Shown here: positions 12,397 through 22,056 of the stretch, in pieces
Layout of the letters: every line of letters begins with the position of its first letter
Position numbering within the stretch: the stretch's first letter is position 1
Assembly (NCBI GenBank): GCA_002400905.2
Contig: NVRQ02000067.1
Location: 1 to 34,423, forward strand
DNA length: 34,423 bases
Source: Gammaproteobacteria bacterium
Lineage (GTDB): Bacteria > Pseudomonadota > Gammaproteobacteria > GCA-2400775
Direction of reading: 5' to 3'
The notes under the pieces: model-generated
Seen by the model: the letters and a program-made list of their open reading frames with translations, nothing else
The model's database searches: none
What the model was told of the DNA's origin: nothing
Program-made: the position numbers and the translations under genes

Positions 12397-14322
12397 ATGG
12401 GCAAAATTATTGGTATTGATTTGGGTACAACCAACTCATGTGTGGCAGTGATAGAAGGTGGCACGCCAAAGGTGATTGAAAACTCCGAGGGTGATCGTAC
12501 GACACCTTCTGTTGTCGCATTTACCGATGATGGCGAAGTATTGGTTGGCCAGTCTGCCAAACGTCAGGCCGTTACCAACCCAACGAATACACTGTTTGCG
12601 ATTAAGCGATTGATTGGTCGCAAATTTGCTGATGACGTAGTCCAGCGCGATATTAAAATGGTGCCTTACAAAATCATTGGTGCGGATAACGGCGATGCTT
12701 GGGTTGAAGCTGGCGGCAAGAAAATGGCCCCGCCTGAGATTGCTGCACGTATCTTGATGAAAATGAAGAAAACGGCAGAAGATTATCTTGGTGAAGACGT
12801 CACTGAAGCTGTGATTACCGTTCCTGCTTATTTTAATGACTCGCAGCGCCAGGCGACCAAAGACGCTGGTAAAATTGCTGGCCTCGAAGTTAAACGTATT
12901 ATCAACGAGCCAACTGCTGCTGCACTTGCCTATGGCATGGATAAAAAACGTGGCGACAGTAAGCTGGCCGTGTTTGATCTGGGCGGTGGTACCTTCGACG
13001 TATCCATCATTGAAATTGCCGAAGTTGATGGCGAGCACCAGTTTGAAGTGTTGTCGACCAATGGTGACACCTTCCTGGGTGGTGAAGATTTTGACTTACG
13101 CTTGATCGACTATCTTGCTGATGAATTCAAAAAAGACAGTGGTATTGATATTCACAATGATCCGCTTGCTCTGCAACGTTTGAAAGATGCGGCAGAAAAA
13201 ACCAAAATTGAATTGTCATCAAGTCAGCAGACTGATGTTAACTTGCCTTACATTACGGCTGATGCTGCGGGCCCGAAACATCTTAACGTTAAGGTGACGC
13301 GCGCCAAACTAGAGTCTCTTGTTGAAGATTTGATTGAGCGCACGATTGAGCCTTGCCGCATTGCATTGGAAGATGCCGGTTTGAGCGCAGCAGAAATCGA
13401 CGATGTCATCTTGGTGGGTGGTCAGACTCGTATGCCTAAGGTGCAAGAGGCTGTGCAAAACTTCTTTGGTAAAGAACCACGCCGTGATGTTAATCCAGAT
13501 GAAGCCATCGCAGTTGGCGCATCGATTCAGGCTGGTGTGCTTGCTGGTGATGTGAAAGATGTGTTGTTGTTAGATGTGACGCCTCTGTCTCTGGGTATTG
13601 AGACCATGGGTGGTGTTATGACTAAGCTAATTGATAAGAACACGACCATCCCAACCAATGCATCGCAAGTATTTTCAACAGCTGATGATAACCAAGCAGC
13701 AGTAACCGTGCATGTATTACAGGGCGAGCGTGAAATTGCATCCGGCAATAAGTCGTTAGGCCGTTTTGATTTGGCTGACATTCCACCTGCACGACGTGGT
13801 ACACCACAAATTGAAGTGTCTTTTGATATCGATGCGAACGGTATTCTTAATGTGTCGGCTAAAGATAAGGCGACAGGTAAAGAGCAGTCTATTATTATTA
13901 AGGCATCGAGTGGTTTGTCTGAAGACGAAGTCGACAAGATGGTTAAAGATGCCGAACTTCATGCGGAAGATGACAAGAAGTTCCATGCATTAGTCGCTGC
14001 CCGTAACAGTGCAGATGCATTAGTTCATGCTACGACTAAAGCAATGGAAGACTTAGGGGATAAGCTTGAAGCCGATGAAAAGACCACTATTGATGCGGCA
14101 GTAGAAAGTTTGCAAGAAGCGATTAAGGGTGATGATATTACTGAGATTGAAGCAAAGACGTCAGCGTTAGGCGAAGCATCAAGCAAAATGGCTGAGCGCG
14201 CTTACGCTGAAAAACAATCAGGTGATGCGGATGTTGAAGCAGCATCAGATACGGGTTCAAGTAATGCCGCTGATGATAATGTTGTTGATGCTGATTTTGA
14301 AGAGGTTGATGACAAGAAATAA
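12397..14322 (+). CDS. dnaK: Molecular chaperone DnaK
   Basis: [22 protein letters not shown]...[13 protein letters not shown]; start reset from 12367 to 12397. Confidence 0.98.
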
Positions 14323-14402
14323 GGTTTTTATTCCTCTTTAACGATAGCGAGACCTTTTCAGGATGTGGGTTTTTCGTTAGGGCAAGGAAAAAATCGTTGA
14401 AT

Positions 14403-14459
14403 AGCCCAAGAGTTCTTTTCAATACCTCATTGAGGGGTATTGAAAAGAATCCTTGGGCT
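14403..14459. terminator. Long inverted repeat between dnaK and dnaJ (terminator/attenuator or structured intergenic element)
   Basis: AGCCCAAG-AG-TTCTTTTCAATACC-TCATTGAGG-GGTATTGAAAAGAA-TC-CTTGGGCT; alternative outer pair AATAGCC / GGCTATTTTT. Confidence 0.6.
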
Positions 14460-14567
14460 GTGAGGCTATTTTTAACACCGCCATAGCGGAAAAGATGCTT
14501 TGTGCTAAGGTCTCGATAGTATTTTATTTAATTAATATAACAACAATAAGGGTGAGGCGCTGAGCGA

Positions 14568-15701
14568 ATGTCTAAACGGGATTACTATGACGTGCTCGGT
14601 GTCGAACGAAATGTCAGTGATGCAGAGTTAAAAAAATCTTATCGTCGTTTGGCGATGAAACATCATCCTGATCGTAATACGGGTGATGCGTCTGCTGATG
14701 CGGAAGGCAAATTTAAAGAAGTGAAAGAGGCCTACGAAGTCCTTAGCGATGCACAAAAACGTGCAGCCTATGACCAGTTTGGTCACGCCGGTCTTGGTGG
14801 TGCGGGCGCAGCAGGCGCCGGTGGGTTTGGCGATGTCTTCGAAGATGTCTTCGGCGATATTTTTGGCGGTGGGCGTGGCGGCGGACGCGGTCATAGTGGT
14901 GCCAATCGTGGTTCTGATCTTCGTTATGACCTAGAGCTCAGCCTTGAAGATGCAGTAGCGGGCACTACCGTTAAAATCCGTGTACCCACTCGTGTTCGTT
15001 GTGGCACGTGTAGTGGGTCTGGCGCCAAGAAAGGTTCTAAAGCCATGACCTGTGAAACCTGTGCAGGACATGGCCAAGTTAGAGTGCAGCAAGGTTTTTT
15101 CTCTATTCAGCAAGCCTGTCCTAAATGTCATGGTAAAGGCACAGTAATTAGCGATCCATGTAATACGTGTCATGGTCAGGGTCGTGTACAAGAAAGTAAA
15201 ACCCTCTCAGTAAAGATTCCGCCTGGTGTTGATGCCGGTGATCGTATTCGCCTTAGCGGTGAAGGTGAGGCGGGTGAACACGGTGGACCAAGTGGTGACT
15301 TGTATGTGCAAGTTCGCGTCAAACCGCATACCTTGTTTACGCGTGATAATGCTGATTTAGTCTGCGATGTGCCTATTGATATCGTGACTGTATCATTAGG
15401 CGGTGAGCTCGAGATTCCAACGCTGACGGGTCGAGTGAGACTGAAAGTACCTGCGGAAACACAGACTGGAAAAGTGTTCCGTCTGCGCGGTAAAGGTGCG
15501 CGTACTGTTCATAGTGATAAGGCGGGTGATCTTCTATGTCACGTTAGCATTGAAACGCCGGTTAATCTTAGTTCCGAACAAAAAGAAATATTGCTGCACC
15601 TACAGCGAACGATGGCTGAAAGTAAGCATGAACACAGTCCCAAGTCTAAATCTTGGCTGGACAGCGTGAAGAAAGTATTTGATGATATTCGTTTCTCCTA
15701 G
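14568..15701 (+). CDS. dnaJ: Molecular chaperone DnaJ
   Basis: J domain with HPD (MKHHPDRN), G/F region, four CXXCXGXG zinc motifs. Confidence 0.98.
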
Positions 15702-15861
15702 TGTAGGTTGTCGCTCATTTTGTAATAGTAGAATGCGTCCCATTTTTTGCCAGGTAAGGCGTGAGGCGCAGTCATAGTGGGCCTATGGCGACAACGAGTA
15801 ACGCTGCATGGTGAAAAATGGTGCCATTATAAGTTATGAAATGGGCGACGACCTGCACTAG
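15698..15861. mobile_element. MITE-like 164-nt CTAG-bounded inverted-repeat element (copy 1)
   Basis: Ends CTAGTGTAGGTTGTCGCTCATTT and (reverse complement of right end) CTAGTGCAGGTCGTCGCCCATTT, 20/23 identical; apex CATAG-TGGGC-CTATG; core resembles 22804-22970. Confidence 0.65.
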
Positions 15862-15877
15862 TTTGTGGGAGATTTAG

Positions 15878-16720
<843 letters not shown>

Positions 16721-16728
16721 GTCTGTTA

Positions 16729-16995
16729 ATGAGCCGCGATTATCATCCTATTGATTGTAGCTTGCATGATTACATCGAGATTGCTTGTCTTAAGCAATAT
16801 CAACTAAAGCTTGAGTTAGTAGACTCATCAGAAATTTTTGCTGTCGCCGAAACGACAGAAACTCGCGCCGACAAGTCGGAATGGCTGATTGTGCGTGACG
16901 GCGCGCTTCAGCATAGCGTTCGCCTTGATAGCATCGTTGCCTTTACCCCCCTGACTGAAAATGCCGGTTTTGGCCGTATCGTATTACGTGACTAA
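16729..16995 (+). CDS. rof: Rho-binding antiterminator-like protein (Rof/YaeO family)
   Basis: YHPIDCSLHDYIEIACLKQYQLKLELVDSSEIFAVAETTETRADKSEWLIVRDGALQHSVRLDSIVAFTPL resembles E. coli Rof (YQPINCDDYDNLELACQHHLMLTLEL...RLDKITSF) from memory. Confidence 0.72.
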   Translation: MSRDYHPIDCSLHDYIEIACLKQYQLKLELVDSSEIFAVAETTETRADKSEWLIVRDGALQHSVRLDSIVAFTPLTENAGFGRIVLRD

Positions 16996-17041
16996 TCACT
17001 CTCAAGGCATTGATCTACGTTAACACTTCTTAATGTTGGCA

Positions 17042-17070
17042 TAGACATTAGGGGGGGGGATAGCGTAAAA
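17042..17070 (+). promoter_or_regulatory. Candidate sigma-70 promoter of carA with G8 tract in a 17-nt spacer
   Basis: TAGACA (17042-17047), 17 nt containing GGGGGGGG (17051-17058), TAAAAT (17065-17070). Confidence 0.55.
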
Positions 17071-17145
17071 TTCTCGCTCAATCACGCACGCTGTAAAGCG
17101 CTGGCGTTGCCAGTGTGGTGTTCCTTGGGACATTACACTCTTAGG

Positions 17146-17178
17146 CGGGAGGCGATGGTTCACATCCTCCCGTTTTTT
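17146..17178 (+). terminator. Rho-independent-terminator-like hairpin in the carA leader (attenuator candidate)
   Basis: CGGGAGG-CGATGGTTCACAT-CCTCCCG followed by TTTTTT, 29 nt before carA start; preceded by hairpins CTGGC-GTT-GCCAG and AGTGT..TGTTCC/GGGACA..ACACT. Confidence 0.75.
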
Positions 17179-17206
17179 ATGTCTTGCAGTTTCGTTCGGA
17201 GGTTGA

Positions 17207-18337
17207 ATGCTTGTTACCGCCTTGCTCGCGCTTGAGGATGGGACTGTCTTTTATGGCGAGTCACTCGGTGCGAAGGGTTATACCGTTGGTGAAGTGGTAT
17301 TTAATACTGCTATAACTGGTTATCAGGAGATCCTGACGGATCCTTCCTATTCCAAGCAATTGGTCACTCTGACCTATCCACATATTGGTAATACGGGTGT
17401 TAATAGTGATGACACCGAATCGAGCCAAATTCACGCTGCTGGGTTAATTGTGCGCGACGTGCCGATCACGCATAGCTGTTGGCGCCAAGAGGGTGATTTA
17501 CGTAGCTATTTACACGAAGCAGGTGTGGTGGCGATTGCTGATATCGATACGCGTAAGTTAACACGCATACTCCGAGAAAAAGGCGCACAAAGTGGCTGTC
17601 TTATGGCTGGCCCCGACGCCAATGCTGATAAAGCATTAGCGCTAGCACGTGGCTTTCCTGGTCTAAAAGGTATGGACTTAGCGCAAGTGGTAACGACGAA
17701 TGAATCCTATCAATGGAATACCACCACCTGGCGTTTAGATGGCTCGCATATTAATGCCAAGCCAAGTAAGCAGTTTCGTGTGGCTGCCTACGACTTTGGC
17801 GTAAAGCATAATATTCTTCGTTTATTGGTGGATAGAGGGTGTGACGTAACGGTATATCCGGCGAAAACGCCAGCGAGTATTGTGTTGGCAAGCCAGCCGG
17901 ATGGCGTCTTTTTGTCAAATGGTCCTGGCGATCCAGAACCTTGTGACTATGCGATTCAAGCGATTAAAGAAATTATAGAAACAAATATCCCCGTGTTTGG
18001 TATCTGCCTTGGCCACCAATTGTTAGGGCTGGCCAGTGGTGCGAAAACGGAAAAAATGAAATTTGGTCACCACGGTGCTAATCACCCAGTTCAAGATTTA
18101 GCCAATAATAAAGTGATGATTACCAGTCAAAACCATGGTTTTTCCGTGTCCGAGACAAACATGCCAGAAAACCTTGAAGTCACACATCGATCATTGTTTG
18201 ATGGCAGCGTGCAAGGTATTAAGCGTAAAGACAAACCTGCTTTTAGTTTTCAAGGTCATCCCGAAGCAAGCCCTGGTCCGCACGACGTGCAACCTTTATT
18301 CGATCAGTTTGTAGCGCTGATGAAGGCGCGGGGATAA
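17207..18337 (+). CDS. carA: Carbamoyl-phosphate synthase small subunit
   Basis: [56 protein letters not shown] glutaminase motif. Confidence 0.98.
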
Positions 18338-18346
18338 AGGACTAGT

Positions 18347-21300
18347 ATGCCAAAACGTAATGATATTAAAACCATTTTGATCATTGGCGCAGGACCGATT
18401 GTTATTGGTCAAGCCTGTGAGTTCGATTATTCCGGTGCGCAAGCCTGTAAAGCACTAAAAGAAGAAGGCTACCGCGTCGTTCTTGTTAACTCCAATCCTG
18501 CCACCATCATGACTGACCCAAGCATGGCGGATGCGACTTATATAGAGCCTGTGGAATGGCGTGTTGTAAAACGTATCATAGAAAAAGAACGTCCTGATGC
18601 TATTTTACCGACAATGGGCGGACAAACGGCACTCAACTGCGCACTTGATTTAGCCAGTAATGGTGTGCTCGACCAATATAACGTTGAGTTGATTGGTGCC
18701 AAAGAAGATGCCATAGACAAAGCCGAAGACCGTGATCGTTTTCGTATGGCAATGGATGCGATAGGTTTAAATACTCCGCGTTCTTATATTGCTCATACGA
18801 TGGAAGAAGTATTTGCAACACATTCGGACATTGGTTTTCCCACGATTATTCGTCCCTCATTTACCCTCGGTGGTAGCGGCGGAGGTGTCGCCTATAACCG
18901 TGAAGAGTTGACCGAAATTTGTGGTCGTGGTTTCGAGTTATCGCCAACTAATGAGCTGTTGATTGAAGAATCAATCATTGGTTGGAAAGAGTTTGAAATG
19001 GAGGTGGTGCGTGATAGCAAAGATAATTGCATTATTGTCTGTTCTATTGAAAACCTCGATCCTATGGGCGTGCATACCGGTGACTCGATTACTGTGGCGC
19101 CAGCACAAACACTAACGGATAAAGAATACCAATTATTGCGCAACGCATCGATTGCAGTACTGCGTGAGATCGGTGTCGATACGGGTGGTTCAAACGTTCA
19201 ATTTGCCATTAATCCTGAAGACGGACGTCTTGTTGTGATTGAAATGAATCCTCGCGTATCACGTTCTTCTGCCTTGGCATCAAAAGCGACCGGTTTCCCC
19301 ATCGCTAAAGTTGCGGCCAAGCTAGCGGTGGGTTACACGCTTGATGAACTGCGTAACGATATTACTGGTGGATTAACGCCGGCGTCGTTTGAACCGAGTA
19401 TTGATTATGTTGTAACCAAGATCCCAAGGTTTACGTTTGAGAAGTTCCCCCAGGCTGAAGACACGCTCAGCACTCAAATGAAATCGGTGGGTGAAGTCAT
19501 GGCGATGGGCAGAACCTTCCAAGAATCATTGCAAAAAGCCATGCGTGGCCTGGAAATTGGTGTCAACGGATTTGATGAGCAGTATGATCATTCACAAGCT
19601 GATGTTGCGGACCAAATTCGCAACTACTTGCGTTTGCCACGGCCGATGCGCATATGGGTGCTTGCAGATGCCTTGCGTGCGGGCATTCCGATGCAAGAGT
19701 TACAAGAAATTACCCGTATCGATCCTTGGTTTTTGGCACAAATCGCAGACTTGATTGCCGTCGAACAGAGCTTGTCGGGTGAAAAATTATTAGATATCGA
19801 TGCGGATAGATTACGCAAACTAAAGCGCAAAGGTTTTTCAGATAAGCGATTGTCAATGTTGCTTAGTTGTGCTGAAAGTGACGTGCGCGCATTGCGCAAC
19901 CAGCTAGCAGTGCACCCAGTTTTTAAACGTGTTGACTCCTGTGCTGCAGAATTTGCCACGACGACTGCCTATCTTTATTCGTGTTATGAAGACGAATGTG
20001 AGGCCGCGCCAACGGATAACGCTAAGATCATGATTTTGGGCGGAGGCCCAAATCGCATTGGTCAAGGTATCGAGTTTGATTATTGCTGTGTTCATGCCGC
20101 GTTGGCATTGCGCGAAGAAGGTTACGAAACCATAATGGTTAACTGTAATCCGGAAACCGTTTCTACCGACTATGACACTTCTGATCGACTCTATTTTGAG
20201 CCGCTGACATTGGAAGACGTACTTGAGGTGATTCGTGTTGAAAAACCCAAAGGCGTTATCGTCCAGTACGGTGGTCAAACGCCATTGAACTTGGCGCGTG
20301 CCTTGGAGGATGCTGGCGCACCAATTATTGGCACATCACCCGATGCGATAGATAAGGCAGAAGATCGTAAACATTTTCAGCTTATTGTTAATGAGCTAGG
20401 ATTATTGCAACCACCTAATGCCACCGCGACAAATGAAGCGGAGGCCTTAGCGTTAGCCGAGGGCATCGGCTTTCCGTTAGTCGTGCGACCATCTTATGTC
20501 TTGGGTGGTAGAGCGATGGAAATTGTTCACGACATTAGTGATCTCGAGCGTTATATGCGCGAAGCCGTTAAGGTGTCAAACGATGCACCAGTGTTGTTAG
20601 ATCGTTTTCTCGATGATGCGATTGAAGTTGACGTCGATGCGGTTTGTGACGGTGAGCATGTCACTATTGGTGGCATCATGGAGCATATAGAGCAAGCCGG
20701 TGTTCATTCGGGTGACTCGGCCTGTTCATTGCCGCCATATAGTTTAAGTGATGACATTCAAATTGAAATTAAACGGCAGATGCGACAGTTAGCAGGTGCA
20801 TTAGGCGTGATTGGTTTGATGAATGCGCAATTTGCCGTAAAGGGTGACAAAGTTTATTTGATCGAAGTTAATCCGCGTGCCTCACGTACCGCACCCTTTG
20901 TATCCAAAGTGATTGGTTATTCTTTGGCTAAAGTGGGTGCCTTGTGCATGGTCGGCAAGACCCTTGCGGAGCAAGGTATGGATGAAGATATCGTAGCGCC
21001 TTACCATGCTGTGAAAGAAGCTGTATTCCCGTTTTCCAAATTTCTTGGAGTTGATCCATTGCTCGGGCCAGAGATGAAATCAACGGGTGAAGTCATGGGG
21101 ATTGGCCGCAGCTTCGCCGAAGCCTTTGCCAAAGCACAGATGGCAGCAGGTAGCTTTCTCACCTGCGGTGGCCGAGCATTTATCAGCGTTAGAGACGCCG
21201 ATAAACAGCACGCTATAGAGATTGCTAGAGATCTGTTGATGCTGGGCTTTAAGATAGTTGCGACGGGGGGAACCGCTAAAGTGCTTGAACAAGCCGGTTT

Positions 21301-21577
21301 AACAGTAGAGACTGTATTAAAGGTAATCGAAGGGCGTCCTCACGTAGTTGATATGATTAAGAACGAAGAGATTTCGTTTATCGTTAATACGACTGAAGGT
21401 AAGCAAGCTATCGCCGATTCGTATTCTATTCGACGTGAAGCCTTGCAGCACAAGATTGCTTATACCACCACCATAGCGGGTGCCCGCGCTAGCTGCATGG
21501 CGATGGCTAAAGGAAATGATTATGATGTTTATGCTCTACAGGCATTGCATGAGGAATTGCGTAAGGAATTGAATTAA
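18347..21577 (+). CDS. carB: Carbamoyl-phosphate synthase large subunit
   Basis: [42 protein letters not shown]; 1076 aa; two ATP-grasp halves. Confidence 0.98.
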
Positions 21578-22056
21578 TGCAAAAAGAACCCGTCACCTTA
21601 AAAGGCGCAGAACGTCTGCGTGAAGAATTGCATCGTATGAAGTTTGTCGACCGCCCACGTATTGTAGAGGCGATAGCCACCGCGCGTGCGCACGGTGACC
21701 TGAAAGAAAATGCCGAATACCATGCGGCAAAAGAGCAGCAAGGTTTTTTAGAAGGGCGAATTCAAGAAGTTGATGGTCGTCTTAGCCATGCGCAAATCAT
21801 CGATATCGCATCGCTTGATCCTGGTGACAAAGTTGTATTTGGTGCAAAGGTCAATTTAATCAACGAAGAAAATGGTGAAAAAGTCACCTATCAGGTTGTT
21901 GGTGATCTCGAAGCGGATATTAGTAAAGGCTTGCTCTCAATTAACTCTCCTGTCGCGCGCGCACTGATCGGCAAAGAGGTGGGTGAAATCGCTACCGTCA
22001 ACGCGCCAGCCGGTGAGATTGAGTATGAAATTGATTCCGTCAGCTACGACGATTAA
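21577..22056 (+). CDS. greA: Transcription elongation factor GreA
   Basis: [55 protein letters not shown]; overlaps carB stop (TAATG). Confidence 0.98.

Follow-up and report, generated by a model that had tools for sequence, protein, structure and literature searches.

The window, by which we mean the whole 34,423-nt stretch analysed here, comes from a draft gammaproteobacterial genome (G000; 180 contigs, 2.16 Mb, 90% completeness) and carries genes in the order dnaK, dnaJ, dapB, a Rof-family gene, promoter, carA, carB, greA and a DUF4149 gene. The features relevant to this work, all on the forward strand, are the following.

15911–16720, + strand: dapB, dihydrodipicolinate reductase, the upstream gene (Pfam DapB_N 2.7e-39, DapB_C 1.6e-45)
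16729–16995, + strand: Rof family gene (modulator of Rho-dependent termination), 88 aa (PF07073 ROF, E 2.9e-26, full profile length)
17042–17047, + strand: candidate -35 hexamer TAGACA, identical in 5/5 genomes of the genus
17048–17065, + strand: 18-nt spacer TTAGGGGGGGGGATAGCG, length invariant in 5/5 genomes of the genus
17066–17071, + strand: candidate -10 hexamer TAAAAT, identical in 5/5 genomes of the genus
17146–17178, + strand: intrinsic-terminator hairpin in the carA leader, putative attenuator, conserved in 5/5 genomes (consensus fold)
17207–18337, + strand: carA, carbamoyl-phosphate synthase small subunit (Pfam CPSase_sm_chain 4e-51, GATase 1.7e-56)
18347–21577, + strand: carB, carbamoyl-phosphate synthase large subunit (Pfam CPSase_L_D2 6.7e-105)
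21577–22056, + strand: greA, downstream of carB (Pfam GreA_GreB_N 4.5e-28)

The same dapB-carA-carB-greA neighbourhood surrounds carAB in pseudomonads, with the difference that here a Rof-family gene stands between dapB and the promoter. The Rof-family gene is the immediate upstream neighbour of the carA promoter and leader terminator, and sequence similar to it also precedes the promoter in three other genomes of the genus (G002, G003 and G004).

The hexamers TAGACA and TAAAAT each depart from the sigma-70 consensus at one position (10 of 12 matches), as a preliminary description of this DNA had stated. That description had placed them 17 nt apart and ended the element at 17070; the spacer is in fact 18 nt long and the element ends at 17071, so that a one-base slip would give a spacer of 17 or 19 nt and not, as had been proposed, of 16 or 18 nt. 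The comparative set consisted of five genomes of the order, all from one genus, with this species represented by a single genome. All five carry TAGACA-18 nt-TAAAAT at the same location, between the Rof-like gene and carA, i.e. near-consensus hexamers at a sigma-70-type distance (16–18 nt), conserved 5' of carA in five of five species. Shared by all of them as well is the GATAGCG that precedes the -10 hexamer.

In the 601-bp region concerned, chance alone would supply about 0.8 promoter-like matches, and the genes here are tightly packed and co-directional, which would suit a reading of the two hexamers as a chance match, with carA transcribed from some other promoter or by read-through from dapB and rof. 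We consider this very unlikely, given that the five species share the two hexamers, the distance between them and the bases flanking the -10 without any change, whereas they differ in sequence farther upstream. Because hexamers and spacing are conserved, the TAGACA-18-TAAAAT pair is likely the carAB promoter, and the assignment made in the preliminary description is upheld for an element lying directly 5' of carA. The conservation of the hexamers, of their spacing and of the leader hairpin described below can be read from the alignments; that the promoter is actually used we infer.

In one of the five genomes (G004) the promoter is on a separate contig from carA and was located by a DNA search. 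The possibility that this genome lacked the promoter was rejected with that result; the break in the assembly falls at a dispersed repeat. The repeat has inverted ends (TAGGGTCTGTTGA...), is found at L121:1-112 and in L092 upstream of carA, and separates the carA leader from the start of carA; G004 contains about 20 matches to it and the genome studied here contains 4 (e.g. G000:C174:3700-3810).

Within the promoter spacer there is a homopolymer of nine G's (17051–17059, + strand). The preliminary description had recognised this homopolymer, which is real, but had counted eight bases in it. It is the longest G run in the window by three bases, the runner-up having 6, and about 0.03 runs of nine G's would be expected on this strand of the 34-kb window from a first-order Markov model. 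Across the 2.16-Mb genome, counting both strands and taking totals from overlapping-match pattern counts, there are 173, 48, 6 and 3 G or C runs with a minimum length of 6, 7, 8 and 9 bases, respectively. Geometric extrapolation from the 6-to-7 ratio predicts 13.3 runs of at least 8 and 3.7 of at least 9, versus the 6 and 3 observed, i.e. long G/C runs are not in excess over chance in this genome by this measure. The G9 is thus unusual inside the window and not unusual across the genome. A further G9 (L004:1501-1509, equivalent to G000:C79:3857-3865) is located beside an A/T-rich inverted repeat, and no open frame of more than 80 codons spans it.

The tract was seen in only one of the five genomes of the genus, the one described here. 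At its position the four sister species read AGGGCCAC, GGGGTGGC, AGGGGCAC or GGGGTGAC, and their complete spacers (TTGAGGGCCACGATAGCG, GTCGGGGTGGCGATAGCG, GCCAGGGGCACGATAGCG and TCAGGGGTGACGATAGCG) align without gaps to TTAGGGGGGGGGATAGCG, with identical length. No change of spacer length was seen among the five species, even though the G tract is missing from four of them. A GGG core is present in all five spacers, and about three substitutions from the majority bases suffice to give G9 in this G-rich background. Since the 18-nt spacing is kept in the four sisters that have no tract, the tract would most simply have arisen by substitutions without change of length, the reverse of the pattern expected from a switch that works by slippage.

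These alignments also bear on the reliability of the tract itself. Homopolymers are error-prone, and in a 180-contig assembly of 90% completeness the length of this one could be a sequencing or assembly error, as the preliminary description had warned. Nine G's, however, give exactly the spacing conserved in the four relatives, which makes an error of count less likely, as a miscount would have to match the conserved value by chance. An error of the substitution type could have occurred but is not needed to account for the data. Taken as a whole, error seems to us a highly improbable source of the tract length.

Other G runs in the genome provide internal controls. A second G9, at G000:C113:833-841, is found in frame in icd, where it encodes part of Val-Gly-Gly-Gly-Ile (the gene was named from its translation and not by a family search), and a G8 run is in frame in an sdhA-like gene. 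At the icd site three sister species encode the glycines by a mixture of GGC and GGT in a stretch of equal length, so that substitution appears as a plain route to G runs in this genome. Besides, all five genomes have a full-length mutS, and mismatch repair is therefore probably working.

The preliminary description had proposed that the run is a contingency tract, in which slipped-strand mispairing would move the spacer between 17, 18 and 19 nt (as corrected for the actual spacing) and phase-vary carAB expression. Several features would fit such a switch. The G9 sits within a conserved promoter spacer, where its length does alter the distance between the elements, and altered spacing between promoter elements is a known mechanism of phase variation (PMC5084427). 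In Neisseria meningitidis, homopolymers of at least 8 are predominantly variable, and strong candidates for phase variation most often have a G/C tract; nine G's are long enough for instability in some species (PMC5084427). Meningococcal phase-variable promoters, such as that of opc with its poly-C, likewise have a long single-base G/C run in the promoter, here located inside the -35/-10 spacer. Unlike those, however, the promoter described here has a spacing invariant in five species, four of them without the tract, no length variants of it are known, and it precedes biosynthetic housekeeping genes, with no surface antigen in the operon, in a genome with an intact mutS. In one study the poly-C tract of opc was variable in a mutS mutant, unlike in the parent of that mutant (PMC3447861). 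Long G runs do not exceed the expected number and are found inside housekeeping genes as well, and slippage of the comparable in-frame G9 in icd would break a central enzyme. Moreover, the effect predicted for a one-base change from 18 is small: across an Escherichia coli library, expression was high for all spacers of 15–19 bp and differed little between 17 and 18 (PMC8695583), from which a slip of one base would be expected to alter promoter strength only modestly. Phase variation of carAB by this tract therefore strikes us as most improbable, and the caveat in the same preliminary description that the run could be chance turns out to be its best reading. A narrower version, in which the G9 has recently become slippage-prone in this one species and yields spacers of 17, 18 and 19 nt mixed at low frequency, we think scarcely likely at all; if it were true, there would be heritable cell-to-cell variation in carbamoyl-phosphate supply.

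Between the promoter and carA all five species have an intrinsic terminator, consisting of a hairpin followed by U6 (CGGGAGG-CG-ATG-GTTCA-CAT-CCTCCCG-TTTTTT), in the position of an attenuator. The carA leader has a predicted folding energy of -49.1 kcal/mol (z -3.3), more stable than all 200 shuffled sequences. The five aligned sequences show little covariation, a single pair out of 35 having changed on both sides. A simple terminator scan missed this bulged stem and flagged instead a hairpin at 17098–17116, which was rejected as the terminator and which falls partly within a stretch missing from two sister species. An Rfam scan of 14000–18500 yielded one match to a miRNA, below threshold, but no credible family, and none matched the hairpin at 17146–17178. 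A terminator-like site occurs within 250 nt in 37 of 76 carA upstream regions of other genomes (0.25 expected in shuffles), and the control for this survey, a stretch inside carA, had none. The stems of these sites differ from one another (GCGAGATG.., GGGAGAAGCC.., CGGGATG..).

The ATG within the hairpin (17155) opens a short frame in all five genomes as read from the alignment, with an end that differs. A conserved leader peptide starting there was considered but appears the less likely reading, as no more than 2 nt separate the ATG from the Shine-Dalgarno-like GGGAGG, and as codon 3 is CAC, AAC or TAC, these changes falling in the hairpin loop. For the same two reasons the hairpin would explain the conservation at this ATG better than a leader peptide does.

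Attenuation of carAB has been described or proposed for Pseudomonas aeruginosa, with a leader peptide, and for P. syringae, with the P32 leader RNA (PMC4997734). The arrangement here resembles that of pseudomonads, where the 5' leader of carA contains a Rho-independent terminator behind a -35/-10 promoter and attenuation was proposed; it differs in that a clearly conserved leader peptide is not established here. The main text of Naville and Gautheret does not discuss carA. The leader terminator thus appears the likelier regulatory element near the G9, and it is of a known kind.

With considerable confidence, we propose that the tract lies in an ordinary conserved promoter of carA-carB-greA, that the G9 was formed by substitution and has no regulatory role, and that control is exerted at the promoter and at an attenuator in the leader. 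A sigma-70-type promoter with a fixed 18-nt spacer would drive the three genes, and a few point substitutions would have fused the G's of a spacer that is G-rich throughout the genus into G9, its length unchanged. The G9 itself would most likely be without regulatory role, and regulation would most likely take place at the promoter together with the conserved terminator hairpin of the carA leader acting as an attenuator; both the neutrality of the tract and the attenuation are what we infer from these comparisons. The length of the spacer in sister species may thus serve to separate a true contingency tract from a run built by substitution, and a tract is unlikely to be a regulator when relatives without it have kept the same length. 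A conserved promoter and leader terminator are now placed 5' of carAB in an uncultured gammaproteobacterial lineage, and the putative carA attenuator would be of a kind already proposed in Pseudomonas.
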